Below, piece by piece: positions 40,362 through 63,649 of a stretch of 64,000 nt of DNA. The notes below the pieces were generated by a model. That model saw nothing but the letters and a program-made list of their open reading frames with translations. It made no database searches and was not told the DNA's origin. The first letter of the stretch is position 1. Every line of letters begins with the position of its first letter. The translations under genes and the position numbers were made by a program. This stretch comes from Bacillota bacterium (GTDB lineage Bacteria; Bacillota; SHA-98; Ch115): the NCBI GenBank assembly GCA_013178415.1, contig JABLXA010000012.1, forward strand, positions 23,437-87,436. The letters are read 5' to 3'.

Positions 40362-40374
40362 AGGGAGGGGCACT

Positions 40375-41171: not shown

Positions 41172-41202
41172 ATGCGAGTACAAACGATATAATAGCAAAT
41201 TT

Positions 41203-41225
41203 AGCCGCCTCCGGGCGGCTTCTTT
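41203..41225 (+). terminator. Intrinsic terminator
   Basis: AGCCGCC (41203-41209), loop TCCG, GGCGGCT (41214-41220), then TCTTT. It separates the exported protein from the lysis genes. Confidence 0.7.
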
Positions 41226-41261
41226 ATGTACTCGATGTACTCGGGAAAGGGGCGGTGTCAT

Positions 41262-41510: not shown

Positions 41511-41523
41511 ATGGGGTGATTAA

Positions 41524-42021: not shown

Positions 42022-42034
42022 GGAGGAGAGAAGC

Positions 42035-42319: not shown

Positions 42320-42328
42320 GGTGACAAC

Positions 42329-43003
42329 ATGATAACTTGGTTTCGGAAATCATGGCGGTGGCTCCTGGGCCTCTTGGCGGCCGTAGGAGCCATTTGGCTG
42401 GGCTGGAATAATCAGTCCAGACGCGTCGTAAAAGAGGCCCAGAAGGCAAAATCTGAGGCGGACAAGCTGGAGGTAGACAGTGCGGTCGAGGCGGAGAGAC
42501 AGCGGCAGCGTCTCCGGGAGGCGGCGGCGAATGCCGCCAAGGTCGAGGGGCTGGATAAACGATTAGAGAGACTGAAAAAGAAGCATGGAATGCTGCCATT
42601 CGTCTTAATTGGACTGTTATTCCTAAGTCTATGCGGCCCAGTTAGGGCTGAGGAACCTTCCTTGCCCACAGACTATGCTTCCCTCGCTAAACTCTATTTC
42701 GCGGCCCTTGATAAGATCACGGAGCTTAAAGCCGATCTCGAGGAGGCTATCTCTATCGCCGACGGTTACAAACAAGCGTATGAGACCGAGAAGCGGCTCC
42801 GGGAGGAAACTGAGGCCGCCGTCACCCGGGGACTGGAGAGGGAGAGGCAGCTACAGGATGTAATCAACAAGCAGCACGAGATTATTCTGAAACTCAGTGG
42901 CGGGAAAAATCTCGGAGTGGTTGTCGGCGGGATCGTGCAGCCCGGCGATACGCCTGGGACAATTCGCCCAGGGGCCCTCATTGCTCTGCAAATAGGATTC
43001 TAA
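42329..43003 (+). CDS. Two-membrane-segment coiled-coil lysis protein (spanin-like candidate)
   Basis: A 224-residue protein: first membrane segment (WLLGLLAAVGAIWLGW), a coiled coil of about 60 residues, a second hydrophobic segment with a signal/lipobox-like end (LIGLLFLSLCGPVRA), another coiled coil (ITELKADLEEAISIADGYKQ onward) and a small glycine-rich sheet at the end. The shape recalls spanins, which fuse inner and outer membranes in two-membrane hosts; in a one-membrane host a different role would be needed. It is the last prophage gene, followed by a terminator. Confidence 0.5.
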   Translation: MITWFRKSWRWLLGLLAAVGAIWLGWNNQSRRVVKEAQKAKSEADKLEVDSAVEAERQRQRLREAAANAAKVEGLDKRLERLKKKHGMLPFVLIGLLFLSLCGPVRAEEPSLPTDYASLAKLYFAALDKITELKADLEEAISIADGYKQAYETEKRLREETEAAVTRGLERERQLQDVINKQHEIILKLSGGKNLGVVVGGIVQPGDTPGTIRPGALIALQIGF

Positions 43004-47001: not shown

Positions 47002-47715
47002 TCATCTCCCGGTACCGGATTCGACCAGCGCTGTGAGTCCCGGGGGACGTGGAACGCGACAGCTATCATATAGCTTTAGTCTTAAATACACCCATGGATC
47101 ATCACAATCCCCACCGCGGTTCCTATCCAAGATGACCGTGACGCGCGCACTGATATGCATCCCCTCATCCATTCTTGGCGCCAGCATCTCTGCCAGCGTT
47201 CGCCGGAGGTAGCCCAAATCCTTACTTGCGGTGGTGATGACCCGGATGGCGTTGGGATCGTACGGATTAACCGTCTCATGCAGCAAATATACTTCATCAC
47301 CCACCTTGAGAGTCTTGATATTCTTCGGACGGTCGTCATATCTGGTCCCGACCACGCGTGCATAGAATTCATCTACTTTTTCATAATAGTCATAGACCTC
47401 GGTCATCCGCTCGCCAAGGAGCACTCCCCACATGAAGCCCTGCGGAACATACTTCCCACCGGGGGGATGGCTGAAGGAATGGTGATACTCATCCGCAAAT
47501 GCATTGAGCAGAATATCGGATGGAACAAGCTCCTTTACCAGCTTGATCTCCTGCCGTCTCCACCTGGGAACTTCATTGAGATCACAAATCCCGGGCAGCA
47601 AGGCGCCCTGGCGCAAAAACGCGATGCCCCTCAGCATGGTACCTAGATGGTAATCATGCTCGCCGAAATCATCGAGCAGCCCCTTCGAAAGTGCCTCTTG
47701 AATGACATCCTTCAT
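47002..47715 (-). CDS. HIRAN-domain protein
   Basis: A 237-residue protein on the minus strand. Residues about 115-215 match the HIRAN domain: EFYARVVGTRYDDRPKNI, VGDEVYLLHETVNPYDPNAI, RVITTASKDLGYLRRTLAEM. HIRAN binds single-stranded DNA ends and is often fused to helicases; here it follows a 110-residue helical N-terminal domain without known motif. It may act in repair. It is transcribed toward the phosphoribosyltransferase gene, convergent with it. Confidence 0.7.
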   Translation of the reverse strand: MKDVIQEALSKGLLDDFGEHDYHLGTMLRGIAFLRQGALLPGICDLNEVPRWRRQEIKLVKELVPSDILLNAFADEYHHSFSHPPGGKYVPQGFMWGVLLGERMTEVYDYYEKVDEFYARVVGTRYDDRPKNIKTLKVGDEVYLLHETVNPYDPNAIRVITTASKDLGYLRRTLAEMLAPRMDEGMHISARVTVILDRNRGGDCDDPWVYLRLKLYDSCRVPRPPGLTALVESGTGR

Positions 47716-48077
47716 TATGCATCCCCCGCAGAATAAGACTTCGTGGAAAGACCGAGCGTATCCTGGTCATATCTCTAGCCCCTGCCGAAGGTGAGAAAGG
47801 CGCTTGACTCCGCCGTTCGGGTTCCCTTACTTCCGCGTCTCCTCGGTTAGGCTGCTTCAACACTCATCAGTATGGTACAATTATGGAACACTGCCCGGGG
47901 AAATACAAGAGGACCCTGTAAGGATGCGCCCCGCAAGGATACATTCTCTGCTTGGATGCTTCCTCTTTCTGGCCAGTCAGTAAGGAGCCCCGGCTTTCTC
48001 CTTAAGGCCTCCAGATATGCCTACGAAAGCTTCTTGATCTTGGTTTGATGGTAGAAGCCGGCATTCGAGGGAAAATA

Positions 48078-48107
48078 TTGACAACAGAAAAGATAATATG
48101 ATAAAAT
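48078..48107 (+). promoter_or_regulatory. Predicted cas operon promoter
   Basis: TTGACA (48078-48083), 18-nt spacer, TAAAAT (48102-48107) with a TG one base before it (extended -10). Transcription would start near 48,114. That leaves a 5' leader of about 340 nt before cas6, which contains the degenerate repeats. The start region is the predicted target of the guide-like segment downstream. Confidence 0.65.
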
Positions 48108-48109
48108 TA

Positions 48110-48127
48110 TTACATTAACAACTAACA
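48110..48127 (-). promoter_or_regulatory. Predicted target of the guide-like RNA at the cas promoter
   Basis: The minus strand here matches the first 18 nt of the spacer-like segment (48214-48231) at 16 of 18 positions; the mismatches are at 6 and 12. The 3 nt 5' of the matching strand read CCT. It overlaps the predicted transcription start, so a bound Cascade would block initiation. Confidence 0.6.
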
Positions 48128-48176
48128 AGGAAAGTATTGATTTTTATATCTTCGCGGACGGAAGACAGATCTTCAG

Positions 48177-48290
48177 CCCGCTATGTTAGACCGGCAGAAA
48201 ACGGGACTGAAAATGTTAATTGTTTATGTAAAGAAATGGCGATACATGTTTTTTGACCCGATTTTGACCCGATGACGAGGGGGTGACACG
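48177..48290 (+). ncRNA. CreR-like element: two degenerate CRISPR repeats around a pseudo-spacer
   Basis: Aligned without gaps to the 37-nt array repeat, 48187-48212 matches positions 11-36 at 18 of 26, mainly the 3' handle side (GGGACTGAAA against GGGATTGAAA). 48264-48282 matches positions 11-29 at 19 of 19 (TTGACCCGATGACGAGGGG). The two copies lie 77 nt apart, the same as the first array unit. Between them is a 40-nt pseudo-spacer (48214-48253) starting TGTTAATTGTTTATGTAA. An 11-nt tandem duplication (TTTTGACCCGA) marks the second repeat. This is the pseudo-repeat/spacer/pseudo-repeat plan of cas-regulating RNAs known from type I and V systems. Processing by Cas6 is inferred. Confidence 0.65.
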
Positions 48291-48454
48291 GTTGATTGAG
48301 TGTGGTAAAGCGTCGCGGCGGGTGGAAATACGCCGGACGAAGCGGCGGAAATTTGTGGCGACCGACGCGACTGGCCTGACGCTTGTGCCGGAATGGGTAC
48401 AGCAAAGTGCATCAAGAGAGTATAGCGCAAGCTATCACGAAAGGGATGGGGCCC

Positions 48455-49672
48455 ATGAACACATGTGATTATGAGTCAGCTTTTCCTGAAACCATCCCGG
48501 CCAGGGGTATCGAGGGTTTCAGGGTTGCCAGGTATGAGTTTGTCATTGAAGCTCTTGAGACCCTCTCCTTGCCCGATTATAAGGGCTCCACATTGAGAGG
48601 CGGGTTTGGAGCGGCATTCAGAAATGTCTCCTGTTCAGCTCGGAAAAGCGATTGCCGGACATGTGTACTCAAGCCTGCATGTCCATATGCTTATGTTTTC
48701 GAGACCGCGCCACCTGAAGGATCAGAGGTATTGAAAAAATTCGAGCATGTGCCTCATCCCTTTGTCCTGGAGCCGCCTCAAACTCGAAAACGGGAATTCG
48801 CCCCGGGTGAGGAGATTCCTTTCGGGCTGGTCCTCATCGGTCGAGGAATCGAGTTTCTCCCCTATTTTATCGTGGCCTTCCAGGAATTTGGGAGGACGGG
48901 GATCGGGCGGGGTCGAGGAAGATTTCGACTGGCACGGATTTATTCTACTATAGGAAGGAGCCTCAATAGCCTTGCCAGCCCGCCACTGGCGGCTGCCGTG
49001 GATGACCGCGATGAATCCGGCAGCTTATCGTCGACCACTATTGAGAGGCGCCTCGATGCAGCCCACGGCCCGCTCATATTCGACGGCCAGGAGAACAAGG
49101 TCTATACCCGTGATACAGTCATTAGCTGGGACGACATCCAGGAGACCGCAACCGCGCTCCTGACACATATCTCCGGAGATACCGGACGACAGCTGGCCCA
49201 CGGTGATCCTACTATTTCCAATAGCGGCCCCCATGTAATGGCCCCCCGCGTAATGGTTGTATTTCAGACCATGACACGTCTGAAGTTCCAGGGGGGGTTC
49301 GAGGATCGCCCGGAGTTTCATATCTTGGTCCGCAGCTTGCTCCGGCGGATCTCATCACTTCTCTACTTCCATCACGAGACCAGGCTGGACATAGACTTTC
49401 GCGGATTTATCTCCCGCGCGGAGGGGGTCCACCTGGTAGCACATGACACGCACTGGGTTGACTGGGAGAGGTACTCAAGCAGGCAGGATGCCCGGATGAA
49501 ACTAGGCGGGATTGTCGGTACTGCGGTTTATGAGTTCAAGGATATGGGCTCCGTGGTACTCTTCCTACCGTGGCTTGTTCTCGGGCAGTATGTTCACGCG
49601 GGGAAGGGAGCGACTTTCGGACTTGGTCAACTCGCCGTTATGTCCCATTCTCCACAGGCAGCCAATGGCTAA
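48455..49672 (+). CDS. cas6: Cas6 pre-crRNA endoribonuclease
   Basis: A 405-residue RAMP protein. KGSTLRGGFGAAFRNVSC near the start, a four-cysteine insertion (CRTCVLKPACPYAYV) and the C-terminal glycine-rich loop GKGATFGLGQL are typical of the Cas6 family that carries a zinc-like insert. It cuts repeats in the pre-crRNA to leave an 8-nt 5' handle, here probably ATTGAAAT. ATG 48455 has GAAAGGGA eight bases upstream; the earlier in-frame ATG at 48446 lies within that site. First gene of the operon, about 100 bp before cas3'. Confidence 0.85.
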   Translation: MNTCDYESAFPETIPARGIEGFRVARYEFVIEALETLSLPDYKGSTLRGGFGAAFRNVSCSARKSDCRTCVLKPACPYAYVFETAPPEGSEVLKKFEHVPHPFVLEPPQTRKREFAPGEEIPFGLVLIGRGIEFLPYFIVAFQEFGRTGIGRGRGRFRLARIYSTIGRSLNSLASPPLAAAVDDRDESGSLSSTTIERRLDAAHGPLIFDGQENKVYTRDTVISWDDIQETATALLTHISGDTGRQLAHGDPTISNSGPHVMAPRVMVVFQTMTRLKFQGGFEDRPEFHILVRSLLRRISSLLYFHHETRLDIDFRGFISRAEGVHLVAHDTHWVDWERYSSRQDARMKLGGIVGTAVYEFKDMGSVVLFLPWLVLGQYVHAGKGATFGLGQLAVMSHSPQAANG

Positions 49673-49776: not shown

Positions 49777-52524
49777 ATGCCCACAAATACCATAAACATA
49801 TGCGTAACCAACACTGCGCCAAAACCCGCGGAGCGCATCCCGTCGAGATCTCTCGCGCTGTTCCAAGCATATGCTTCCAAGGAATACGGTCAGGCCCTAT
49901 GCCCTTTCGAGCATCAAGCCTCGGTGTTTGAACGTATAGAGAAGGACCAGGAAGTTCGCCTCATCGCCGGGACCGCCTCGGGGAAGACTCTGGCCGTCGC
50001 TGTGCCTCTTTTCGCCAAGCTCAAGGCTAGCGAGATTCGCCACGCGCTTTTCATGTATCCGACGGTCGCCCTGCTTGAAGACCAGCGGCGCGTCATGGAT
50101 AGCCTCGCGGAAATATCAGGGCTAGAAGCTGGCGAGCTGCGCGGCGGCATGAGCCGCTCCCGGTTGATAGCGGCACTTATCAAACCAGTGATCCTGGCGA
50201 CACCTGACGAGATATACTGGTTCTTTCGGAGGAATATCAAGTATAGCGGCTTGCTCATATATGGCCTGTGCCAGGTCGACGAGTTCGTCCTGGATGAGGC
50301 TCACCTCTTCAACGGGCTAATGTTGAGGAATTTTGAGCATCTATGGAAGCGCATAAGGTTCCTGGCGGGTAACCTAGGTAAATCGCCGAGGTTGCATATT
50401 CTTACAGCAACTCCCACAGAAGGTCTAGAGCGGCTCAACGACGCACATCCCATCGTAGGAAAGTCAAAATGCGGTGATGTGCAGGTTGAATTCCGTGTGA
50501 GCGGTCGCCGTGAACGTGCGCAAGATTTGGCGCATACGGTCGACGAGGCGCTCGTGGAGGGCGGGAAGAAAGTGCTCGTCGTGTGCAACTCTGCTCGCAC
50601 AGCACACCAATTGTTTGAGAAGTATAAGGTCGAAGACACCGCCGCGATACCGGTTCAACACAAGCTGAGGTTTGGAAAGCTTCCTCTCGGTGCTCTCAGC
50701 GCATGGCTGGACAGGATCGGCGCTGACAGACAGCTCATGAATGAGCTGGGCCAGCGGCTATTTAAAGAGGAGGATGTGGTTCTCGCGGATGTCCCTGGCG
50801 GAACACACCTGGAAGTCCCGCTCCAGGATCTGGTTGCGCACGCTATGGAGGCACTAGAACGGCAGTGTTGGCGCATCAAGAGGGCACTTTGGGAACGTGC
50901 CCAGCGCCCGGGTGAGACCTGCGAGTCCCTGCTGAACAACCGTCCTTTGCCTTGTCGCATAATCGCCGTAGTACGTAGAGAGCTGGAAGCCGCAACAGAC
51001 ATCAAGGAACAGCAGACCATCATAGACCAGTGGCTTGCTGACACCGGAGATAAGATAAGCGGCATTCAGCAGGATCCCATTCACTGCGAGGCGCCTGAGT
51101 TCAAAGAATTGGGGGATGCATTTGTATCCGTAGGTATCGATAAAAACCTGGCATTTCTCATGGTAAAACGATTGGTTCTTGAAATGAAAGCTGACCCAGC
51201 GCAAGTCCCTGTGCGTGGCATGAGCCACCGCCCCGTATATTTGCGCTGGCTTGATCAAGCGGTAGGGACCGAAGCCGCAGAGGCAATACGGCGTGCCGCC
51301 GCACAAGGTCTGCAATCGGGTGAACTTGATGTAGAATGCCGGCACATCGGGGTATGGAAAGATGCAGGCATCCCCGTCATCGTTTATTCAGGTAGTATGG
51401 CGAAGCAGGCGCGCACGGGCCTGATAGATGTATTCAGGGATCTGGAGCAGGCGGTGTTGATATCTACGTCAGCCGTCGAAGTGGGCGTTGACTTTTATGC
51501 AGATACGCTCATCACTGAGGAATGTGAGAGTAGCTCTTTCCTCCAGCGCTTCGGGCGAGTTGGACGGCATGAAGATGCCAGCAAGGTGATCACGCTGGTG
51601 GATGGTGATTCATATTCCATCCTCAGCCCTCTTGACGGGACAAGTATGGATAGAGAAAGATTCTCCTCTAAGATCAGAGAAGTTTTCCCCCAACGAAACT
51701 ACACGGATGGTTCGCAGCTTCTTGACGCAAGCCACTACCTTGTCAATGAGCAGCTGGGGCGGACCGGCCGGAGGCTTAATGAAATGGCAGAATTCTTGAA
51801 GGTCAGGCCAATTGCCGAAAAGGTGCGCGCAGCAGACATTGAGCTCAGTTTTGGGCTACGAGGCACTATGCCACAGATTGCGCTCCGAGATGGGGTCGCC
51901 AAGGACGCGTTTTATCTACTCCGCTACATAAACGATGAAGATCTCCGTCCTTCTGATTCGCCATTTTTGGCGGCGCGGGCAAAGACCTGGTTTACTTCAT
52001 TGATTTTCAAGCCGGCGTCGTCTGATATATTAGTGGACCTGGAAGAGACTCTTAAGGCGAGTAAGTATCTTTTCGTATTGGAAGGGTCCAATGTTTGCGT
52101 TCTCTCACAACCCGCAGTGGGCTGGACTTATCTGGAGAAAATGCTCGCGTACTTTGGCCGGGTCGGCGCTTGGAACAAGACACATCCCGGCAACTTCATG
52201 CTCCTTTATGGCGATGTTTATCTATCCCGCGTCGACCGTGAAATACAGGATCTTATGCCAGTGCGGAACAGCGATCAGGACCCGGTATTCATTCCGAATC
52301 AAACTTACCTCTTCTTATTTGGCTGGACCAATGCGGACGAGACGCGCCGTCTTCTAGAGGAAACGAGAGTGGCAGATTGGGAGGAATTGTATTACGATTG
52401 GAACCAACTCAAATACGCCTCGGGGGCCGGCATGCCAGGAGGCATGGTCATCCTGGAAAACGCCACAGGTGCATGCTTTGCCGCATACAGGGAGTTGGTG
52501 AATCATGTTGGTCGAAAAGTTTAA
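49777..52524 (+). CDS. cas3: Cas3' helicase (no HD domain)
   Basis: A 915-residue DExD/H helicase. Motif I is AGTASGKT (about residue 67-74), motif Ia FMYPTVALLEDQ, motif II LDEAH, motif III LTATPTEG, and motif VI FLQRFGRVGRHE. There is no HD nuclease at either end, so the nuclease must come from the next gene (52505). It unwinds target DNA recruited by Cascade. The helicase-only form is the type found in I-D. Starts at ATG 49777 with GGGGGAG upstream; overlaps the HD gene by 20 bp. Confidence 0.85.
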   Translation: MPTNTINICVTNTAPKPAERIPSRSLALFQAYASKEYGQALCPFEHQASVFERIEKDQEVRLIAGTASGKTLAVAVPLFAKLKASEIRHALFMYPTVALLEDQRRVMDSLAEISGLEAGELRGGMSRSRLIAALIKPVILATPDEIYWFFRRNIKYSGLLIYGLCQVDEFVLDEAHLFNGLMLRNFEHLWKRIRFLAGNLGKSPRLHILTATPTEGLERLNDAHPIVGKSKCGDVQVEFRVSGRRERAQDLAHTVDEALVEGGKKVLVVCNSARTAHQLFEKYKVEDTAAIPVQHKLRFGKLPLGALSAWLDRIGADRQLMNELGQRLFKEEDVVLADVPGGTHLEVPLQDLVAHAMEALERQCWRIKRALWERAQRPGETCESLLNNRPLPCRIIAVVRRELEAATDIKEQQTIIDQWLADTGDKISGIQQDPIHCEAPEFKELGDAFVSVGIDKNLAFLMVKRLVLEMKADPAQVPVRGMSHRPVYLRWLDQAVGTEAAEAIRRAAAQGLQSGELDVECRHIGVWKDAGIPVIVYSGSMAKQARTGLIDVFRDLEQAVLISTSAVEVGVDFYADTLITEECESSSFLQRFGRVGRHEDASKVITLVDGDSYSILSPLDGTSMDRERFSSKIREVFPQRNYTDGSQLLDASHYLVNEQLGRTGRRLNEMAEFLKVRPIAEKVRAADIELSFGLRGTMPQIALRDGVAKDAFYLLRYINDEDLRPSDSPFLAARAKTWFTSLIFKPASSDILVDLEETLKASKYLFVLEGSNVCVLSQPAVGWTYLEKMLAYFGRVGAWNKTHPGNFMLLYGDVYLSRVDREIQDLMPVRNSDQDPVFIPNQTYLFLFGWTNADETRRLLEETRVADWEELYYDWNQLKYASGAGMPGGMVILENATGACFAAYRELVNHVGRKV

Positions 52525-53272
52525 GGGTATGCTGGGCAAGTCGGCGCATGGAGGCCAAACACTCTATGATCATTCCATGGCTTCCGCGAGGATCGCATGC
52601 CGGGTGCTTACCGACAGCCGATTTGCGCCCGATTGGTTCCCAAGCCAGAAACGCGACCAGATCCTGTTCGCGATATTCATGCACGATGTGGGTAAACTCG
52701 ACCCTGCATTCGGGGCTATGTTGGAGGCTGCCCGAAGCGGGCAACCGTTACCCTCAAAGCGAGTAAAGCATGAAGCGAGTACCCTCGACTTTGAATCGCT
52801 GATCATCGAAACGGAAGAGGAAGTGAAAGACCATCTGCGCGCTATTTTTGGGTACCGTTTCACGTCGACGATTGACCTCAACGAGGTGTTTGCATTCGCG
52901 GTCACACACCACGGATTATTCTATATCTCCTTCGAGAAGCGGGACGATCAAATAGTCCGACGTATCCGTCGCGAATGGACGGTGTTCAACTATGGCGAAG
53001 TGGCCCGCATTACATTGGCGGACCTACTTTTCGACTATCACCCAATGGGCGGTCTGGTGATGATTTCGGATCTGCTTGCCTCCTTTTGCCATGAGCGACA
53101 GATTGACGATGCCGATGAAATCATCAATAAGGCTCATTCTCTGAGGGAATTGGTGGATCTCTTGCTCCGGGAAGGAGCGGATCAGGTGGTTGAGCGCAGC
53201 ATTCAGGAGTATGAACCACGCACCGGAGGCCTGCATGATATACTCACTTTATTAGCGGGAGGGCTAACATAA
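52505..53272 (+). CDS. Stand-alone HD nuclease (Cas3''-like)
   Basis: A 255-residue HD-domain protein. Metal ligands are visible in order: LYDHSMASARI, FAIFMHDVGKLDP (the HD pair), RVKHEAS, VTHHGLFYI (paired His) and MISDLLAS (C-terminal Asp). The order matches Cas3/Cas10d HD nucleases that cut single-stranded DNA. In ordinary I-D systems this domain forms the N-terminus of Cas10d; here it is its own gene, overlapping both cas3' and the large-subunit gene. It probably acts with Cas3' or docks on the large subunit. Confidence 0.75.
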   Translation: MLVEKFKGMLGKSAHGGQTLYDHSMASARIACRVLTDSRFAPDWFPSQKRDQILFAIFMHDVGKLDPAFGAMLEAARSGQPLPSKRVKHEASTLDFESLIIETEEEVKDHLRAIFGYRFTSTIDLNEVFAFAVTHHGLFYISFEKRDDQIVRRIRREWTVFNYGEVARITLADLLFDYHPMGGLVMISDLLASFCHERQIDDADEIINKAHSLRELVDLLLREGADQVVERSIQEYEPRTGGLHDILTLLAGGLT

Positions 53273-55407
53273 TGGACGATATTGGCGATATTATCCTGAG
53301 TCAGGCGGAAAATGCTGTCAAGAAGTTGGGAGTAAGAGATATCGTTTCACCTGAAGAGGTTGCCCGCAGCATAACCAGTCGGTCCACATATTGGGAGAAG
53401 CCCATGCCGACCGGCGAGCGTTTGCTGTTTATCCGGCTCTTCTCAGGTGTCGTCCAACGAGAGGAGACTTTCCTCGGGAATATTCTCTTTAATGCATTCT
53501 TGAGTAAGGCGTTTCTGCGGGCGGTCTCGGAGAGAAATCTGGGCCACATGGAGCTGGTGGCAAACGACCTCGAGAATTACTACTTCCTGGCGCGCACCAC
53601 AGGCGGCATAGAAGAGCTTGCAGGCGCGCTGCGCGCCGAGGTAGAGCGCAGCTTGCCGGATCTATTCTTCGGCGCCCCCAGCGAGTCGCAGGGGATCTAT
53701 GGAGACCTGGGCCGCATGTTTACTTTTCGTAAGAGCGACTTTGAGCCATTCCCTGTATATGCTATACCACATTTCCTTGCGCCTAATCTCGAAAAGGCGG
53801 TTCGCGAGCAGGTACGGAAGCTGCTGACAGGAGATCAATCCGCCAATTCTATCAGAACGATACTTGCTGCAATTGCATTTTTTTACGGTCGCACGAGCAG
53901 CGGCAGCGGTGACGCTCAAAGCTTCCCCAATTTCGCCGACCATCTTGTAAATGACGCCGGTTACGATGGGTTGCTTAAGGCGGATGAGGTAAGGCGAGCA
54001 TTCAATATTCCTGAGGTTACCAAGGCCGCTATAAAGGAAAGCATCGACACTGAAAGGTATAGCAGGCAGGAATTAAGAGCCCTGCTCTCGGGGCTACTGG
54101 ACTCCTTCGCGACAAGTATTGATAGTGGCTCGGGCAAATGGTTTATGGGGTTCTTACATAAGAAGGAAAAATTCATAGCCCTGCCGGCACATGATTATGT
54201 TGATTTGCTCCTTGCCGACATCCAGCTTGGATACCATCTATTTCGACGAATAACCGTCGCAAAGCGGGTACCCTGCCGGCTATGCAACATAGCAGAGGCT
54301 CTTGTCGAGGATCGGTACGTGACAATGGGCCTCAACTCATTCAAGTTCAACAACCAAAGTGTCCGACATCAGGCAGCAAAAGTATGCCCAAGGTGCGCGC
54401 TATATTCATACCTCGCTCAAAAGCTGCTGGGCACCGAGATGGTATCGGCAGGTGGCAAGCTGCCGCAGGTTCCAAAGACCTATAACCTCATTTTTCATTA
54501 TGGCATGCATACCAATGATGAAATACAGCTCCTGGCCTCCCGGATCGACCAACTCTGGGATCTGATACGGCGACACCGTGACATAGAACAGATAAGACGA
54601 GAGAACGTAAGGCAGGTTCAGGCGCTGGCTGAGAAAATGGACCATGAACGAGATGCCGCGAGAAGGTCAAAGCTGGCAGAAGAGCTCGCTTCCAAGAAGT
54701 CCGATCTGGAAGTGGTGCAGGCCAACCTTGCCAATGCCGAACAAGACATAACACATAGTTTCCCATGGCTGAAGGAAATGGGCGGGTCGCTTGTTCCCGC
54801 TGAAAATTGTTTTCTCGATATAATGGCCAATCTGCAAATTTCGGAGACCAGAGTGGAAAGGCATGTGTTGGGGCTGGGAATTGACGGCTATCGAATGATA
54901 CTCTTTGTGCTCCCTCAGATCCGCGCGCCACGCGATGCCAAGGAACACGATTTCGCGCAGCGCCGATTTTCCAATAGCCGTATCACCGTGACCGTGCTCC
55001 TGTCATTTCTGCGAGAGCTATGCGGCTGTGACGGTCCATTTTATTACCAGTCGCTCCCGACGCTCAGTCTCGATGCATTCCGGCGCGACACGTTCTACGT
55101 CCGAAATGAACCAATTGATATTGCGCAGGTACATGATGAATATGAGGTCGTCACCCAATTGGCCTGGAAACTTGTCCACCAGCGTGGAAGCGAGGGGTTT
55201 GTTCGAAAGGTGGTGCTTGCCGAGAGACTGCTCGAAGATCCATTAGCCACTTTTGCGGAGGTGATGCGAGATAGCCCGGTACTAGGGCAGACGAAAGGAT
55301 CGTACAAACGGCTCCCGGGAAACTACCGGCAGGATTGGGGCGCATATAACATGACAGAATATGCAAAGTTCATCAACAAGCTCTGGAGACTTCAGGAGGT
55401 GAAATAA
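53272..55407 (+). CDS. cas10d: Cas10d-like large subunit without HD domain
   Basis: A 711-residue protein between HD nuclease and Cas7. It has a treble-clef zinc finger (CRLC about residue 343, CPRC about 379), a long coiled coil (about 445-500) and a palm-like C-terminal region, but no GGDD cyclase motif, consistent with the inactive Cas10d palm. The first residues have no HD motif, unlike normal Cas10d. It would recognise the PAM and hold the complex. Its start overlaps the HD gene stop (TAATG). Assigned by context, size and zinc finger rather than by close sequence match. Confidence 0.65.
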   Translation: MDDIGDIILSQAENAVKKLGVRDIVSPEEVARSITSRSTYWEKPMPTGERLLFIRLFSGVVQREETFLGNILFNAFLSKAFLRAVSERNLGHMELVANDLENYYFLARTTGGIEELAGALRAEVERSLPDLFFGAPSESQGIYGDLGRMFTFRKSDFEPFPVYAIPHFLAPNLEKAVREQVRKLLTGDQSANSIRTILAAIAFFYGRTSSGSGDAQSFPNFADHLVNDAGYDGLLKADEVRRAFNIPEVTKAAIKESIDTERYSRQELRALLSGLLDSFATSIDSGSGKWFMGFLHKKEKFIALPAHDYVDLLLADIQLGYHLFRRITVAKRVPCRLCNIAEALVEDRYVTMGLNSFKFNNQSVRHQAAKVCPRCALYSYLAQKLLGTEMVSAGGKLPQVPKTYNLIFHYGMHTNDEIQLLASRIDQLWDLIRRHRDIEQIRRENVRQVQALAEKMDHERDAARRSKLAEELASKKSDLEVVQANLANAEQDITHSFPWLKEMGGSLVPAENCFLDIMANLQISETRVERHVLGLGIDGYRMILFVLPQIRAPRDAKEHDFAQRRFSNSRITVTVLLSFLRELCGCDGPFYYQSLPTLSLDAFRRDTFYVRNEPIDIAQVHDEYEVVTQLAWKLVHQRGSEGFVRKVVLAERLLEDPLATFAEVMRDSPVLGQTKGSYKRLPGNYRQDWGAYNMTEYAKFINKLWRLQEVK

Positions 55408-55408
55408 A

Positions 55409-56104
55409 GTGGCGATGCAGGTTGACCGCGAAGTCATTGATGACTTTTGTCCTCGGTTATTCCGATTGCTTGACAACCTGGATTTGCTCCCCCGCCGTTT
55501 ATCGGCGAAACCAAATGAATTCGAGAAATATCCGCGTCTACTTTTTGGGTGCATCCAGCGGTACAACGACGTAGAGGCAGGTTTCAAGGAGTGGGAAAGC
55601 CGTATCCTCCGCGAAACCGCATATAAGGACGAGTATTATCTTGAAATCGAAGCCTTAAGGCAGTGGATGCTTGCCCATGGCGAGGCATTTGCAAAGAAGT
55701 CAAATATCCAACATCTCTCCACCAGTCTATATGCAAGATTATTCCAGTATCTTTACCCTCGCAGGGTGCTGGCTAATGCATATTGCCTAAAACATAGGGG
55801 CGAACCAGAGGTCCTAAGCAGGTTTAAGAGATTTGTTGACGCGAGAGATGGAGAGACAAGGCAAGCTGCAAAGGTAGAGTTGGAGCAGCTTCTTGACACC
55901 GATTTTCAACAATCGGTCGAGCCGGCAGTCGCGAACCTGATGACCGCATATGCCGACGATTGGAAAACAATTATCAACGATGTAAAGAGAAATGTGATGG
56001 CCGGGGCCAGGTATTACCACAAGGTACTAACCGGTGAACAGGCGCCTGTTTCATCAGAGGCGGGAGCTCAAATCGAAAACTATGAAAAGGCTGAGGAGGA
56101 ATAA
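55409..56104 (+). CDS. Helical Cascade-associated protein, candidate Cas11-like small subunit
   Basis: A 231-residue protein located between the large subunit and Cas7. It is almost wholly helical (PRLFRLLDNLDLLPRRLSAK, EIEALRQWMLAHGEAFAKKS, EPAVANLMTAYADDWKTIIN) with acidic tail. In I-D, the small subunit is made from the 3' end of cas10d by internal translation; here a separate gene of suitable size and fold sits exactly there. This makes a dedicated Cas11-like role likely but unproven. GTG 55409 has GGAGGTG eight bases upstream. Confidence 0.5.
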   Translation: MAMQVDREVIDDFCPRLFRLLDNLDLLPRRLSAKPNEFEKYPRLLFGCIQRYNDVEAGFKEWESRILRETAYKDEYYLEIEALRQWMLAHGEAFAKKSNIQHLSTSLYARLFQYLYPRRVLANAYCLKHRGEPEVLSRFKRFVDARDGETRQAAKVELEQLLDTDFQQSVEPAVANLMTAYADDWKTIINDVKRNVMAGARYYHKVLTGEQAPVSSEAGAQIENYEKAEEE

Positions 56105-56106: not shown

Positions 56107-57105
56107 ATGGCAGACGAGAGAATAGACCGGTTTGCTGAGCAGCTGGTTGGCGTCGATACCCTGCTGCCGCGGGAAATCACCAAGGGGAATAAAACAACAA
56201 AAATTGCCCAGGCGATTTATACCAGACAGGTCGTGACGATTGTTGGCGTAAAGATTGCGGCGAGCCGCTTTCTCCCGGTCTCGCACGCAGGATATTCTAA
56301 TGAAACTTATGTGGACAAGATTGACTTGCTGGGTAAAAAGCGCGCCGAGTTCATTGGCCGCAAGCTGAAAGGAATCGAACGGCGGGCCCATATGGCATTG
56401 TTTCGCGAGATGACGGAGGCAGAAACCGGCGCCAAATGGGGCGAATTCTTCTCTGAGAAGTTCGGCAAGGAATGCACCATCCCGGATGGTCTATGTATTG
56501 CGTGCTGGAATTGCTCCCTCTTTGGCGGCCTTGAGACCGGTAAAGGCGCGACTTTCTCGAGGGTACGCTATTTCGACACATTTTCTATTGAAGATGCCAC
56601 TGAGTGCATTCAGAGCGACGAATCACCAGAGCAAATGGCAATAGGCAACACGGTAGGCGAGGACCTAAGCGTCGAGCGAGGTGAGGCGTCCTTCCATCGT
56701 TATGAGTATGTCAAGACTGGCACCCATTTCCCATTTATAACCATCATCGAAAGCCCAGCTTTACTAGATATAGCAGGTTATCTGGCTGCTGTCAAGCTCG
56801 CAGATCAGCACGGCTATGGGAAGTATTCAGCGAACCATGGAAAGTTTACTACAGATTTTATAGCCGTATCAACTGGGTACCCCCTCTTTTCGATCCTTGA
56901 TATGCTTGTCTGGCTGGACGAAGGTAACCTATCCAATGTTCAAGATAGGCTCAAGTTCGAAGCTGCGATTGACAAACCAGTGACCCTATTTGGAACCGAC
57001 ATTGATGAATTGGGTAGCAGGCTCAATGAGGAATTTAAAGCCTACATCGCTGCATTAAGCGTTCCGCCTAGGGATAGGGAACCACGGAGAAGGGGCACCA
57101 GATGA
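56107..57105 (+). CDS. csc2: Csc2 (Cas7) backbone subunit, type I-D
   Basis: A 332-residue Cas7-family protein. CIACWNCSLFGG (zinc-binding cysteines before the LFG turn), FSRVRYFDTFSIEDA, EASFHRYEYVKTGTHFPFIT and a C-terminal GYGKYSANHGKFTTDFIAVS follow the Csc2 pattern of I-D Cascades. Several copies would coat the crRNA. GAGGAGGAATAACC precedes ATG 56107. Its basic tail (RDREPRRRGTR) may contact RNA. Confidence 0.75.
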   Translation: MADERIDRFAEQLVGVDTLLPREITKGNKTTKIAQAIYTRQVVTIVGVKIAASRFLPVSHAGYSNETYVDKIDLLGKKRAEFIGRKLKGIERRAHMALFREMTEAETGAKWGEFFSEKFGKECTIPDGLCIACWNCSLFGGLETGKGATFSRVRYFDTFSIEDATECIQSDESPEQMAIGNTVGEDLSVERGEASFHRYEYVKTGTHFPFITIIESPALLDIAGYLAAVKLADQHGYGKYSANHGKFTTDFIAVSTGYPLFSILDMLVWLDEGNLSNVQDRLKFEAAIDKPVTLFGTDIDELGSRLNEEFKAYIAALSVPPRDREPRRRGTR

Positions 57106-57116
57106 GGTGATTGTTG

Positions 57117-57908
57117 ATGCTCTATGCTAGAGCGCTACTGCTCCGCAACTGCGGTCGGTTTACCCATGTGAGTTCAGATTTTGGCTCGCAGTATCATACG
57201 CACATATTCGTCACGAGCGAGGCCCTGCATGCCGGTCTGACCCGAGGAGCGACATGGCGTCACACAGATAGATATGTAGACCTGACCCTCGACGCGGCCA
57301 AGGGTCTTGGGAGGGATTATTTCCACTGCGATTATGATGTAAGTCGCATGCCTGTATGGTTCACCCCTGGCCTGTTCGTAGACGAAGGCCTCCAGGTACT
57401 TGGCAAGTCACATCAAGCGGTGGATAGTCACTACTTCAATGTCGTAGACGAGGGCTATCCAAGCACCGGAGCCAATGGGCGGCCTTATTTCGTCCCGACC
57501 TATGGAACTATCGAAGGAGTACTACCGGACCACCGGTTGTTTACCTGGGCACTTTCTCCGTCCCGCACAGAACTTGAAGGATACATCCGTGGTCAGGTCT
57601 TCCTCCTGGGCAAGAAACGCACCATGTTTCAGATCGTCAGTATGGGGAATATAGTGGATGGACAACGAACGAATGAAAAATGCAATGTGCCCTACCTTGA
57701 ACTTCCCCCTGCCGATTCTCAAAGGTTCGCGAGTTTCAGCGTGCTGGCCGTAACGGCCCGATATATTCTCCTCCAGGGCGAGACCCGCGATTCTGTGCCG
57801 TGCTGGAAGTTTTACGACGGTTTGCCTTTCGGGGAACTCATATTGCCAGAGTTCTATCTCAACAGCACACCGCTGCCACGAACTCTATGGGACGCGAACC
57901 GGCCCTAG
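57117..57908 (+). CDS. csc1: Csc1 (Cas5) subunit, type I-D
   Basis: A 263-residue protein following Csc2. It shows the RAMP-like start LYARALLLRNCGRF, later DYDVSRMPVWFTPGLFVDEG, RTELEGYIRGQVFLLGKKRT and an ELILPEFYLNSTPLP end that fits the Csc1/Cas5 family. It would grip the 5' handle of the crRNA. ATG 57117 is chosen with GAGGTGAT five bases before it over two upstream TTG codons. Similarity by eye is moderate; the place in the operon carries weight. Confidence 0.65.
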   Translation: MLYARALLLRNCGRFTHVSSDFGSQYHTHIFVTSEALHAGLTRGATWRHTDRYVDLTLDAAKGLGRDYFHCDYDVSRMPVWFTPGLFVDEGLQVLGKSHQAVDSHYFNVVDEGYPSTGANGRPYFVPTYGTIEGVLPDHRLFTWALSPSRTELEGYIRGQVFLLGKKRTMFQIVSMGNIVDGQRTNEKCNVPYLELPPADSQRFASFSVLAVTARYILLQGETRDSVPCWKFYDGLPFGELILPEFYLNSTPLPRTLWDANRP

Positions 57909-57960
57909 GTACCGTAGATTACATTAGACCGTTGCACATGTCCGGGGGGTATTGAAGCCT

Positions 57961-58995
57961 ATGCCAGCAGAGTCAGGATCGAGTTCCGGTCAGATTATTA
58001 TCTCAGACTTCGGAGCTTTCGTCGGGAAGAAAAGCGAAAGACTGATCATCAAACAAGGTAAGGAGATTATCGAGCAGGTCCCATTCCACAACCTCCAATC
58101 TCTCATAATCAGTGGTTCCGGAATCTCCATCTCTGCTGACGTCATCCAGGAGTGTATGGAGCACGGTATCCAAATCGATTTTTTGACATTTTCGGGGAAA
58201 CCCTACGCAAAGTTAACTTCACCGGGCCTGTCCGGGACCGTGATCACGCGCCGTGAACAACTCCTGGCTTATTATGAAAAGCGCGGATTAAGGCTAGCGA
58301 AGGCTTTCATCGAAGGCAAGCTCCGCAATCAGCAGGGCCTACTTCATTACTTCGCAAGATACCGGAAATCTGAAAACTGCGAGACGTTTGATGTGCTATC
58401 CAATATGGAAAACCAGATAGCCGACATGGTGAAAGAACTTGAAACCATCGACGGCAAATGTGTGGATGACGTGCGAGAGCAGCTCCTGTCCGTTGAGGGC
58501 CGTGCCGGGGCGATTTACTGGGGCGGTATTAAAAAACTACTGGCAAGTAATATCGAGTTCGAGACTCGAGAGCACCGTGGGGCCAACGACCCTTTCAATT
58601 CGTTACTCAACTATGGGTACGGTATCCTCTACTCGACCGTATGGGGAGCTATTGTGCTCGCCGGTCTCGAGCCCTTTGCCGGATTCATCCATACCGACCG
58701 CCCCGGCAAGCCCAGCCTCTGCCTGGATCTCGTCGAGGAGTTTCGCCAGCGAGTCGTGGACCGCACCGTGGTGAGTCTCGTAAATCGAGGATCGACAATC
58801 AAGTTGCAGGAAGGCCTGCTTACGGACCAGATCAGGAGAAAGCTCATCGAAAACATCCAGGAACGACTCGAGGCAAAGGAAACATATCGTGGGAAGCAGC
58901 ACAAGCTGAAAACCATCATTCAGCTTCAGGCCCGCCGGATCGCCAGTTATCTTAGAGGCGAGACGGACTATAAGCCATTCATTGGACGCTGGTAG
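57961..58995 (+). CDS. cas1: Cas1 integrase
   Basis: A 344-residue Cas1. The N-terminal beta domain (ISDFGAFVGKKSERLIIKQG, LQSLIISGSGISISAD) is followed by the helical catalytic domain with VEGRAGAIYW (Glu), GFIHTDRPGKPSLCLDL (His) and VEEFRQRVVD (Glu). It inserts spacers at the leader end of the array. ATG 57961 is taken over TTG 57952 because GGGGGG lies 11 nt before it. Adaptation genes follow in the order cas1-cas2-cas4-csa1. Confidence 0.9.
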   Translation: MPAESGSSSGQIIISDFGAFVGKKSERLIIKQGKEIIEQVPFHNLQSLIISGSGISISADVIQECMEHGIQIDFLTFSGKPYAKLTSPGLSGTVITRREQLLAYYEKRGLRLAKAFIEGKLRNQQGLLHYFARYRKSENCETFDVLSNMENQIADMVKELETIDGKCVDDVREQLLSVEGRAGAIYWGGIKKLLASNIEFETREHRGANDPFNSLLNYGYGILYSTVWGAIVLAGLEPFAGFIHTDRPGKPSLCLDLVEEFRQRVVDRTVVSLVNRGSTIKLQEGLLTDQIRRKLIENIQERLEAKETYRGKQHKLKTIIQLQARRIASYLRGETDYKPFIGRW

Positions 58996-59042
58996 GCCTA
59001 CAAAATATCTCCACCAGAGGGGGGTCAGTCCTGAACACCCTG

Positions 59043-59363
59043 GTGATTTACGATATCCCAAGCACAAAGATCCGCAACAAGATTGCCGAGGCGTGCATGG
59101 ACTATGGCCTTGACCGGATCCAGTGGAGTGCATTCCTTGGAGACATTAATCATAATCGTCGTGAGGAACTTGAGGCCAGGCTGAAAAAAGTCCTCGGCAG
59201 ACGGGCAGGAAATATCCAAATTTTTCCGGTATGTGAAAAAGACCTGGGCTTGCGCGTCATCATAGAAGTCCGAAAAGAAGACGAGAGGATTGGGGCCGAC
59301 AGCAAGTCACGAAAGCGTCGGAAGTGCAAAGATAGACCTGACGAGAAACAAAAGGAAGAGTGA
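59043..59363 (+). CDS. cas2: Cas2
   Basis: A roughly 100-residue Cas2: IYDIPSTKIRNKIAEACMDY, RIQWSAFLGDI, FPVCEKDL, with the first-strand Asp in place. It dimerises and bridges two Cas1 dimers. GTG 59043 cuts into the first strand; upstream the frame reads LNTLV from CTG 59031, which has GAGGGGGG about 7 nt before it and would restore the full strand, so the real start may be this rare CTG. The charged C-terminal 30 residues are an extension. Confidence 0.8.
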   Translation: MIYDIPSTKIRNKIAEACMDYGLDRIQWSAFLGDINHNRREELEARLKKVLGRRAGNIQIFPVCEKDLGLRVIIEVRKEDERIGADSKSRKRRKCKDRPDEKQKEE

Positions 59364-59372
59364 TCACCTGCC

Positions 59373-59978
59373 GTGTTATCTGAGCTTGAAAGGCCCGGGC
59401 AACTTCAACTGCGCGTGACCGACGTAAAACAATTCGTCTACTGTCCGAGAGTCGTGTACTTCTCTTATCTCCTGCCAATCGAAAAGAAAGTCACCCGTAA
59501 GATGGAGTACGGTAAGGAAGAGCACATCGAGCTCGACCGGCTAGAAAAGCGGCGCACGTTCCGCGCGTACGAGCTCACGGATGACGCTGAGCGAAGATTC
59601 CATGTCAACCTAAGTTCCGAGAGGCTGGCGCTCTCAGGGGTCCTAGACATGCTCCTGGTACAGGGAAACGCCTATTACCCCGTAGAGTTCAAATATACCC
59701 GCCGTCCCCCTGAACTGAATCATAAGTACCAGCTCATGGCCTATGCAATGCTCCTGGAGGATACTGTAGGGAAGCCGGTGCGGGCAGGGTTCGTGTATGT
59801 GAGTGAGGATAGGATCGCCTACCCGATAGACTTCACGCCGAATATGCGCAAATTTGTCCGTGAGATTCTCGCCTCTATTCGGGAGATGATCAAACGCGAG
59901 CAGATGCCTCACCGAGCCCGCCAAAAAAAGAAATGCGTGGACTGTGAGTTTCGCCGGTTTTGTAACGACATTGAGTGA
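59373..59978 (+). CDS. cas4: Cas4 nuclease
   Basis: A 201-residue Cas4. FVYCPRVVYFS gives the first cysteine, LSGVLDMLL (Asp) and YYPVEFKYTR (E-x-K) are the RecB nuclease core, and CVDCEFRRFC supplies the other three Fe-S cysteines. It trims and selects PAM-end overhangs before integration. GTG 59373 starts it 9 bp after cas2; no strong ribosome site is visible. A second, longer Cas4-like protein follows. Confidence 0.85.
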   Translation: MLSELERPGQLQLRVTDVKQFVYCPRVVYFSYLLPIEKKVTRKMEYGKEEHIELDRLEKRRTFRAYELTDDAERRFHVNLSSERLALSGVLDMLLVQGNAYYPVEFKYTRRPPELNHKYQLMAYAMLLEDTVGKPVRAGFVYVSEDRIAYPIDFTPNMRKFVREILASIREMIKREQMPHRARQKKKCVDCEFRRFCNDIE

Positions 59979-59996
59979 AACTGCGAGGTGAGATGG

Positions 59997-60914
59997 ATGT
60001 ATTTTCTGACCGATGAGGAGCGCCAGAGACTCCTCAAGGGTATTCTTCCTAAGTCAAGGTCACTTGAAATCGCCCAAGAATTGCGCGGCTGGAATTGGCA
60101 TCAGCCGCCGCTCGAACCAGTGTATGATATACCTCTTGCCGTCTACGAGATCGCCGGTAAATATTGTTCCACAGGCCGGGATATCTACCTCCGGCGGATT
60201 CAGCACCTGCGTGCTGCACCAAACAAGGACATGATCATGGGCTCAGCCTTCCATGAGACTCTTGCGAGCATCCTCGTAAGGGCTAAACGTCTGATATATC
60301 TACATGGTGTAGATAATCTGCGTCAGATTCTAAAAGAGCTTCCAGAGCCTCCCCAAGGCATTGTCGAAAGACGCAAGCACGATCTCTCGACTGAGGATTG
60401 TACCGAGCTCGAACGTCGGGTCAGCACTATACATGAGTTTGAGGTTGCCCGGCTCTCTACCCGGATCCAGGATACTGTGGCAAAGCAACCTTACATCAAG
60501 GAAGATTCCCTTGTTGCCACCGCCATCCCGGTGATGATCGAGCAGAGACTTGATGGCTCTTTCCTGGGATTAAGCCAGATGCTCAGCGCGGACGCATTTG
60601 TTTTGCCTGAGCCAATGATCATGGATTTGAAATATGGTGAACCTAGACAATTCCATAAGCTTGGGACAGCCGGGTATGCACTTGTAATGGAGTCCCTTTA
60701 TGAATACCCTGTCAATCTGGGATGTGTCGTTTACCTCAATTTCAATGGTGACCGTATTACGGTGTCAAAGGACATCCATATTATTGATGACGAACTTCGC
60801 CAACGGTTCATGGAGGAACGTGACCAAAAAGCACGCATGATTTATGAAGAAATTGACCCCGGCGTCGCGAAGGACTGCTACCCAGCCTGTCCATTTAGAA
60901 AGCACTGTAAATAA
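59997..60914 (+). CDS. csa1: Csa1-type second Cas4 protein
   Basis: A 305-residue protein: YFLTDEERQRLLKGILPKSR, ELRGWNW, CSTGRDIYLRR (first cysteine), IMDLKYGEPR (core E/D-x-K-like strand) and C-terminal CYPACPFRKHC (three cysteines). This is the Csa1/Cas4-2 layout known mainly from archaeal I-A loci. Paired Cas4 proteins there define the two ends of each prespacer. ATG 59997 has GAGGTGAG before it. Last gene of the operon before the leader. Confidence 0.8.
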   Translation: MYFLTDEERQRLLKGILPKSRSLEIAQELRGWNWHQPPLEPVYDIPLAVYEIAGKYCSTGRDIYLRRIQHLRAAPNKDMIMGSAFHETLASILVRAKRLIYLHGVDNLRQILKELPEPPQGIVERRKHDLSTEDCTELERRVSTIHEFEVARLSTRIQDTVAKQPYIKEDSLVATAIPVMIEQRLDGSFLGLSQMLSADAFVLPEPMIMDLKYGEPRQFHKLGTAGYALVMESLYEYPVNLGCVVYLNFNGDRITVSKDIHIIDDELRQRFMEERDQKARMIYEEIDPGVAKDCYPACPFRKHCK

Positions 60915-61457: not shown

Positions 61458-63649
61458 GTTGCAGTCCTTGACCCGATGACGAGGGGATTGAAATTATTAT
61501 TATCGCCGAAGCATTGCACTACCTGTTAAGGGGAGTTGCAGTCCTTGACCCGATGACGAGGGGATTGAAATAGTTGAGTGTCGGAGACTATTGCGATTTT
61601 GAGATGCGTGTTGCAGTCCTTGACCCGATGACGAGGGGATTGAAATGCCGCCAACTGTGCTTTCCCAACCCCATACAGCGCCGGGTTGCAGTCCTTGACC
61701 CGATGACGAGGGGATTGAAATTACTCGGAGGTTATTCATCTGCGCCGGCATTATTACAAGTTGCAGTCCTTGACCCGATGACGAGGGGATTGAAATTTGT
61801 CAATTCTGCCCAATACCATAATATCACGGGAAACGTTGCAGTCCTTGACCCGATGACGAGGGGATTGAAATTTCCTCGTAGATGTCGGCAGTATCCTTCG
61901 GGAGGAGTTGCAGTCCTTGACCCGATGACGAGGGGATTGAAATTATCAATCGTTGCCGATAGTACGATCTCAGCATTCTGTTGCAGTCCTTGACCCGATG
62001 ACGAGGGGATTGAAATAGCATGGAAGGAAGACACCCAGACCTGGATTGATGGTTGCAGTCCTTGACCCGATGACGAGGGGATTGAAATAGTCAACCTCTC
62101 CTGCAATTCCCCGGCTAATTTAACCGGTTGCAGTCCTTGACCCGATGACGAGGGGATTGAAATCGCTCCGGGCCGGATTGGATAATCTCCGGCACGATGT
62201 TGCAGTCCTTGACCCGATGACGAGGGGATTGAAATCTTTCCTAGCCCCAGTAAATAGACCAATGACTCGATGAGTTGCAGTCCTTGACCCGATGACGAGG
62301 GGATTGAAATTCTGCTGCTCCTCGATGTTGGTATGAGTGGCGCGGCTCAGTTGCAGTCCTTGACCCGATGACGAGGGGATTGAAATGCTATCAACAGGTA
62401 ATGCGTGGGGAGATTCCTCATGTTGCAGTCCTTGACCCGATGACGAGGGGATTGAAATTCCCCTGCGCTGCCGAGGATATTTAAAGCTATGGCGGTTGCA
62501 GTCCTTGACCCGATGACGAGGGGATTGAAATTTTATCCTCAGCCCCAGCCAGCTAGGACCGATCAAGTGTTGCAGTCCTTGACCCGATGACGAGGGGATT
62601 GAAATTAACTCTATGTCATTGCCTCGGTAAAAAGAGATGTCCAGTTGCAGTCCTTGACCCGATGACGAGGGGATTGAAATTGCATATGGCGGTCTGTCAC
62701 AATCCCAGGGCTTTCTTGGTTGCAGTCCTTGACCCGATGACGAGGGGATTGAAATAATTGGACGGAGTGACATGCAAGGCGCGATATTTCAAGTTGCAGT
62801 CCTTGACCCGATGACGAGGGGATTGAAATCGAAACGAAGCCCATCCGAAGATACGATCGCGAAAGAGTTGCAGTCCTTGACCCGATGACGAGGGGATTGA
62901 AATTCCCTGATTCTGATGGCGGCGAGATAGGAATAAGGCCGGTTGCAGTCCTTGACCCGATGACGAGGGGATTGAAATGTCCCTACAGAGGCAAGTCTGA
63001 ATGGGAGATATACAACGTTGCAGTCCTTGACCCGATGACGAGGGGATTGAAATGCTTCCCGCAGCGGCACTATCAACGCCTTACGATCCTCGTTGCAGTC
63101 CTTGACCCGATGACGAGGGGATTGAAATTCCCTGATTCTGATGGCGGCGAGATAGGAATAAGGCTGGTTGCAGTCCTTGACCCGATGACGAGGGGATTGA
63201 AATATGTACTACATGGCTTTCCGATATCGCTATCCATGTTGGTTGCAGTCCTTGACCCGATGACGAGGGGATTGAAATGTAGTGTCCCGCCGCCTCACTT
63301 CTGAGCGCCGCCAAAAGTTGCAGTCCTTGACCCGATGACGAGGGGATTGAAATGCCGGAGCTTAGGGTCATTCCCCACTTCCTTGCGGTTGTTGCAGTCC
63401 TTGACCCGATGACGAGGGGATTGAAATACAACGTGGATATGTGGCGCGAGTGCCTGCGCGTTCGTTGCAGTCCTTGACCCGATGACGAGGGGATTGAAAT
63501 CCTCCCCAAGGCGGTGGAGGCTGTACGAGGGCAGTTAGTTGCAGTCCTTGACCCGATGACGAGGGGATTGAAATCCTTACCCGTAGGGAGTTCGGAGCGG
63601 GATCAGCTATATGTTGCAGTCCTTGACCCGATGACGAGGGGATTGAAAT
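61458..63649 (+). CRISPR. CRISPR array: 30 repeats, 29 spacers
   Basis: A 37-nt repeat starting GTTGCAGTCC and ending GGATTGAAAT occurs 30 times, apparently without variation, at 61458, 61535, 61610, 61685, 61760, 61835, 61907, 61980, 62052, 62127, 62199, 62274, 62350, 62422, 62495, 62569, 62644, 62719, 62793, 62867, 62942, 63017, 63092, 63167, 63242, 63317, 63391, 63464, 63538 and 63613. Spacers are 35-40 nt. The ATTGAAA end and the adjacent leader set the direction left to right. Spacers 20 (62904-62941) and 23 (63129-63166) differ by one base. Spacer 3 resembles the prophage gene at 7850. The last repeat is intact, so there is little trailer decay. Confidence 0.98.

Follow-up and report, generated by a model that had tools for sequence, protein, structure and literature searches.

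Organization of the cas locus

The window, by which we mean the whole 64,000-nt stretch of DNA analyzed here, carries a cas operon and a CRISPR array on the same strand, with a small CRISPR-like unit in the operon leader (Table 1). The type I-D effector set of Cas10d, Csc2, and Csc1 was recognized in the operon with PADLOC profiles; NCBIfam and Pfam gave no match for Cas10d. The HD nuclease is encoded by a separate gene rather than fused to Cas10d as in canonical type I-D, which makes the system a split variant of that type. The initial annotation, made from the sequence without database searches, had called the system type I-D-like, a label now borne out by the Cas10_Id, Cas11d, Cas5d, and Cas7d profiles together with the separate HD gene. 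The genes for the cognate Cas effector thus share the locus with the leader guide unit. The array repeats are 37 nt long and occur in 30 identical copies from 61458 on, the first unit measuring 77 nt.

Table 1. Features of the leader, cas operon, and CRISPR array, with window coordinates
Feature	Position	Strand	Evidence
Predicted cas-operon promoter, TTGACA-18-TAAAAT, TG before the -10 box	48078..48107	+	11/12
Protospacer-like guide target, 16/18, over the predicted start site	48110..48127	-	
PAM position, CCT on the - strand	48128..48130	-	
Upstream pseudo-repeat, 21/37 against the array repeat, stem CCG/CGG	48177..48213	+	Gapless alignment
Predicted 8-nt 5' handle ACTGAAAA, end of the upstream pseudo-repeat	48206..48213	+	
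40-nt pseudo-spacer; seed 48214-48231 matches the cas promoter region	48214..48253	+	
Downstream pseudo-repeat, 23/37; exact core 48264-48282 equals repeat positions 11-29	48254..48290	+	
Predicted guide handle, window host/Orenia metallireducens, ACUGAAAA			
cas6, first recognized operon gene	48455..49672	+	Domain/profile matches
cas3' helicase	49777..52524	+	Domain/profile matches
cas3'' HD nuclease, separate 255-aa gene	52505..53272	+	Domain/profile matches
Cas10d, type I-D large subunit	53272..55407	+	PADLOC PDLC01506, E 9.1e-171
Cas11d, small subunit	55409..56104	+	PADLOC PDLC01499, E 1.4e-66
Cas7d/Csc2	56107..57105	+	Profile matches
Cas5d/Csc1	57111..57908	+	PADLOC PDLC01497, E 6.8e-94
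cas1, cas2, cas4, second cas4 (Csa1-like)	57952..60914	+	Profile matches
CRISPR array, 30 repeats and 29 spacers of 35-40 nt	61458..63649	+	

Three further features of the neighborhood were observed. Within the array, spacers 20 and 23 (62904-62941 and 63129-63166) are identical over the first 36 of their 38 bases, reflecting either a near-identical protospacer stored twice or duplication of a unit. A gene for a HIRAN-domain protein (47002-47715) is divergent from the cas operon. Farther away, ORFs at 35300-43003 resemble phage tail and lysis genes by eye, which suggests a prophage upstream of the CRISPR locus.

The predicted promoter and the leader unit

The predicted cas promoter is the sole plus-strand promoter match in 47716-48500; a weaker minus-strand match (9/12) overlaps it, and shuffled sequences average 0.9 matches. 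The guide target begins 3 nt past the -10 box and covers the predicted transcription start. Between the target and cas6, neither a further plus-strand promoter nor a terminator-like site was found, and for this reason the guide is probably transcribed within the cas mRNA. It would then probably be made, inside the mRNA leader, from the very promoter that it targets.

In the leader unit (48177-48290), the two pseudo-repeats lie 77 nt apart, equal to the spacing of the first array unit, and the next-best gapless placement of the repeat in the leader stretch reaches only 17/37. The downstream pseudo-repeat retains 19 consecutive repeat bases and scores 38, compared to a best score of 26 in 100 base shuffles. 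The upstream pseudo-repeat taken by itself scores 20, no higher than expected by chance (shuffle median, 19); it gains weight because of its register, its ACTGAAAA handle, and a swapped stem pair. The ACTGAAA contained in this handle is the repeat end in 8 of 9 related arrays, and the stem, read by eye from the alignment, has gone from CCC/GGG to CCG/CGG, with one pair exchanged on both sides. Decay of the two copies is complementary: the upstream one keeps the handle and stem, and the downstream one keeps the hairpin core and has lost the handle, as would the parts of one functional unit. RNA folding of 48114-48300 showed nothing unusual (z -0.82), and an Rfam search of 47700-48500 gave no match. 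Separately, two copies of TTGACCCGAT, which makes up the first ten bases of the repeat core, are spaced one base apart at the downstream pseudo-repeat (48253-48273).

The first 18 nt of the pseudo-spacer match the reverse complement of the target with mismatches only at positions 6 and 12, leaving guide positions 1-5, 7-11, and 13-18 paired. Several claims of the initial annotation concern this stretch, and all of them stood: two degenerate repeat copies 77 nt apart around a 40-nt pseudo-spacer were recovered by gapless alignment, the 16/18 match with its two mismatch positions and the CCT at the PAM position were confirmed, and the placement of the target over the predicted start of the cas promoter agrees with the 11/12 consensus match.

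The match was compared with chance in several ways. With positions 6 and 12 left out, the window guide pairs at 15/15, a value that none of 3000 dinucleotide shuffles reached (best, 13). When 275 real spacers from nine arrays were set against their own cas upstream regions, the best result was 13/15; for one locus (L032) the region before Cas10d was used, cas3 not having been found there. In the window's genome, the PAM plus seed has a single exact site, the cas promoter, and four two-mismatch sites, the guide itself included, compared to six for a reversed control pattern.

Recurrence in other split type I-D loci

To look beyond the window, we scanned 23 loci, comprising 20 named loci from a Csc2 alignment, the window, G084 (L015), and G187. 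A first scan covered 22 of these, skipping positions 6 and 12 and requiring an exact A[CT]TGAAA handle. At a threshold of at least 13/15, it returned three matches, all with CC at the PAM position: the window, L035, which is Orenia metallireducens, and L027, a Clostridiales metagenome-assembled genome (MAG) in the window's phylum (G134). As controls over the same 22 loci, six sets of decoy handles yielded 11 matches that reached 13/15, one of them with CC (13/15), and none that reached 14; six other pairs of skipped positions found, at 14 or more, only the Clostridiales locus. The 3000-shuffle control applied to the window is weaker for Orenia, whose score of 14 was reached by 1 shuffle in 3000; for the Clostridiales guide, 15 was reached by none and 14 was reached 30 times.

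A second scan of all 23 loci used 153 exact-handle starts and imposed no rule on PAM or mismatches. It gave 127 matches of at least 12/17, headed by the Clostridiales guide (16/17, CCC), the window (15/17, CCT), and Orenia (14/17, CCA). Two more matches of 14/17, in L035 and G187, tie the Orenia guide; they lack CC and their mismatches are scattered. One match of 13/17, in L025, has CCA. Within positions 1-16, the Clostridiales guide is mismatched at 12 and the window and Orenia guides at 6 and 12; the Orenia guide is additionally mismatched at position 17. That positions 6 and 12 go unread, as the initial annotation had argued, is consistent with this pattern, in which every mismatch within 1-16 of the three guides falls at one of them.

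All three top guides are situated before effector operons, each with a CCN PAM. Their seeds are unrelated to one another, which argues that guide and target have changed together. In Orenia and the Clostridiales MAG, the guide lies upstream of cas3 on the strand opposite the effector operon; the window guide is on the cas strand. The Orenia pseudo-repeats match their own array repeat at 21/37 and 25/37, where a shifted, meaningless placement scores 20/37 compared to 21/37. Those of the Clostridiales locus match at 21/37 and 18/37; the downstream copy is weak and the pseudo-spacer is about 46 nt.

A consensus scan found no plus-strand promoter at the target in either of these two loci, and promoter-like matches on the guide's own strand overlap the target. 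Such matches number 4 in Orenia against 5.6 in shuffles and 6 in the Clostridiales locus against 3.7, at most about 1.4 standard deviations above; a TATAAT follows the Orenia target by eye. In these loci the guide may control the cas promoter, the promoter of the guide itself, or both. In Orenia, a small ORF that we take to be transposase-like (L035:2846-3105) is located between the guide target and cas3 and may be read together with the cas genes.

The unit is far from universal. The nearest relative, L017 on the G006 contig (Cas10d 71%), has no such unit in the roughly 1.1 kb before cas6, and handle and pseudo-repeat scans found none in G187, which has the gene order of the window. A guide was thus present in 3 of 23 scanned loci, about 15 of which include the region before the effector operon according to gene maps. 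The leader guide is not a fixed part of the split I-D family. The initial annotation had proposed aligning this leader in related genomes, and the outcome was divided: across genera, unrelated seeds fit their own targets, but the closest relative is without the element. The broader proposal of a CreR-like self-repressing guide gains support from the recurrence, as a similar anatomy was recovered de novo at two other loci, with unrelated seeds that each match a site upstream of their own effector operon.

A pseudo-repeat search of the ten loci with known repeats found units in the window, L027, and L035, along with many weak matches of 17-19/27. It also returned a lone good repeat after the L027 cas4 genes and another past the end of the L036 array. 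In L028, a repeat core at 12016-12042 keeps its hairpin, has lost its handle, and abuts the cas6 start codon at 12043; the search found no upstream partner for it, and it may serve Cas6 as a binding site and so limit cas6's own message. Elsewhere, a solitary perfect array repeat stands near the start of another contig (G000:C26:213-254; L045, L105), with no second copy in 600 nt and no good seed match in the 1.75-kb locus. No relative turned up when viral contigs were scanned with the Csc2 alignment.

Spacer matches and the PAM

To address the PAM of these systems, we compared the spacers of the window array with 149 relative genomes and those of the G187 and L015 arrays with 121 genomes each. 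In L052, a locus from the same order, window spacer 22 has a 29/38 match that includes 26 of the first 29 positions, with CCA in front. Spacer 6 of G084 (L015) matches L092 at 29/36, including 21 of the first 22, with CCT in front; the matched sequence is itself a spacer stored in the CRISPR array of G113, and the stored spacer includes the CCT. Spacer 10 of G187 is exact over its first 18 nt in the cas10d gene of L018 (7711-7728), another split I-D locus, and matches no further, with GCC as the flank. This last match goes against CCN, though it could be fortuitous; alternatively, the spacer may encode a guide that targets a rival CRISPR system. CCN therefore stands at two of three PAM-proximal spacer matches and at all three guide targets, and GTN, given as the canonical type I-D PAM in the cited portions of two papers (PMC10212523; PMC9123187), stands at none.

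A recheck compared the first 17 nt of the 275 spacers with the fetched loci, leaving out matches flanked by a repeat end, and at 16/17 or better returned two pairs only, spacer 6 of L015 and spacer 10 of G187 in L018. In the initial spacer search, dropping repeat-end flanks left ten spacer-locus pairs, eight of which, with distal or diffuse matches, were not counted; their flanks are ATC, ATC, TAA, TTA, CTC, CTC, CCT, and TGC, the CCT being an edge effect, as L050 is G084's own array. Window spacer 28 (24/37, CAT) and two diffuse pairs (CTT and GGA) were also left uncounted. Spacers of the window, G187, L015, and L036 arrays had no match among phages, and the L035 array gave one weak match to an Enterococcus phage (34 nt, 88%, E 0.5). 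Exact patterns of three window spacers and of the repeat core had no match in viral contigs. Should the leader guides work as proposed, CCN would point to a PAM in the split I-D branch that differs from the canonical GTN.

Interpretation of the leader unit

We put at roughly 85% the probability that the leader mini-CRISPR is a CreR by which the type I-D complex represses its own operon, a judgment drawn from comparison of DNA sequences; transcription, Cas6 processing, binding, and repression are steps that we infer. Cutting of both pseudo-repeats by Cas6 would release a predicted product of 48206-48282, with a 3' hairpin and an 8-nt handle at its 5' end. Loaded with this guide, the type I-D complex would pair with the predicted start-site region over 15-16 positions and stop there; with only about 18 of the 40 nt pairing, repression rather than destruction of the target is expected. 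Repression of the cas operon would then rise with the amount of Cas proteins and would be lifted when ordinary crRNAs compete for the complex or anti-CRISPRs disable it.

Observations counted against the CreR reading include the upstream pseudo-repeat that is not significant by itself, the promoter scans and less clear shuffle controls of L035 and L027, the GCC flank, the GTN of canonical type I-D, the ordinary RNA fold, and the absence of the unit from the nearest relative, G187, and most scanned loci. Another concerns the register of the unread bases: a type I-D review, in the portion cited, has every sixth base flipped "starting at position one" (PMC10212523), unlike the guides here, which spare 6 and 12.

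The main alternative of the initial annotation was an ordinary inverted-repeat operator. Under this reading, a DNA-binding regulator would recognize the two similar 18-mers, and the likeness of their flanks to repeats would be incidental. The window's target and pseudo-spacer do form an inverted repeat 86 bp apart, and genes that we take to be WYL-like regulators lie upstream in L035 and L027, which would suit such an operator. However, the inverted orientation of guide and target holds for the window and Orenia only; in the Clostridiales locus the two form a direct repeat, which is easier to reconcile with a guide RNA than with a palindromic operator. Guide copies, moreover, follow the A[CT]TGAAA handle and target copies follow CC, the mismatches within 1-16 are confined to 6 and 12, and the 19-nt exact repeat core would have no role. 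The operator is accordingly disfavored by the direct repeat, and we regard it as quite improbable.

A second alternative is feedback by Cas6 at the level of mRNA, in which Cas6 would cleave or bind the pseudo-repeats and thereby limit cas6 mRNA, the seed match being secondary. Within one predicted transcript, about 170 nt separate the end of the repeat core from the cas6 start, and the L028 core abutting its cas6 start codon is in keeping with this idea. Yet the 16/18 match and the CCT at the PAM position are left unexplained, as are L035 and L027 with their guides on the strand opposite the effector operon, and such feedback alone seems very improbable. Least credible of all is a decayed remnant of an old array with a self-matching spacer and no present function, since the degenerate repeats and the nearest relative without the unit accord with it but the kept parts are those that one guide needs, and decay would not maintain one match pattern in three guides of unrelated sequence. 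The operator, Cas6-only feedback, and relic were rejected on these grounds.

The self-repressing guide could also be part of a one-transcript loop, a rather unlikely elaboration in which Cas6 would cut its own mRNA leader and the guide would bind both promoter DNA and nascent leader RNA. An RNA arm is conceivable because the guide is antisense to the first bases of the cas transcript. Binding of single-stranded RNA is known for type I-D complexes, according to the cited part of PMC9123187.

Relation to known systems

CreR is described as a mini-CRISPR regulatory RNA (PMC12948488) and, following Liu et al. 2023 (Cell Host Microbe), is known for types I-B, I-E, and V-A (PMC13131331), with the types given elsewhere as type I and V-A (PMC12737573); these statements come from excerpts of the three papers. 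As far as the excerpts describe it, CreR resembles the window unit in being a mini-CRISPR with partial complementarity to a cas promoter and in having the cognate complex as repressor, a role that is predicted for the window. The sequence traits are found in the window, where a short spacer stands between two repeat-like sequences of the cognate array and a seed partially complementary to the predicted cas promoter lies beside a PAM. The window unit differs from CreR, within the same excerpts, in its split type I-D context, the CCN at the PAM position, the roughly 15 paired positions in three segments, and the location of the guide inside the cas leader on the cas strand. We found no type I-D CreR in the open-licence literature searched, which is not proof of absence. 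The CreR type of regulator is a known kind, and its occurrence in type I-D would be a new variant.

CreA of the CreTA system offers a second comparison, which follows the sections of PMC8501985 cited here. There, the guide requires positions 1-5 and 7-11 but tolerates changes at 6 or 12, and measured Cas6 cuts leave an 8-nt 5' handle and a 3' hairpin (PMC8501985). The window unit shares with CreA two divergent pseudo-repeats that would give the 5' and 3' handles, a putatively self-controlled operon promoter, and the freedom at positions 6 and 12. CreA represses a toxin gene (PMC8501985); here the recognized downstream genes are cas genes, and pairing continues through 13-17. The first recognized gene past the target is cas6, and a small RNA toxin could escape notice.

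Other CRISPR-derived regulation bears a looser resemblance. Shmakov et al. reportedly described, in 2023 in NAR, CRISPR-derived RNA regulatory elements, with stand-alone repeats or mini-arrays lying close to the cas promoters of many type I systems, and the window unit is like them in being a mini-array near a predicted cas promoter. SpyCas9 is said by Workman et al. (2021 and 2024) to undergo autorepression by a natural single guide, reportedly derived from tracrRNA. The likeness would lie in an effector repressing its own expression through its own guide, whereas SpyCas9 belongs to type II.

Implications for type I-D systems

Orenia metallireducens is a named strain record, and tests of the guide need not await the window host. 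If the CreR reading is correct, RNA-guided self-repression would extend to type I-D, a type I/III hybrid, by the same rule of positions 6 and 12 going unread and with a longer pairing of three five-base segments. Three loci in which unrelated seeds fit their own targets would point either to repeated origin or to fast joint change of guide and target, making the evolution of such guides testable.
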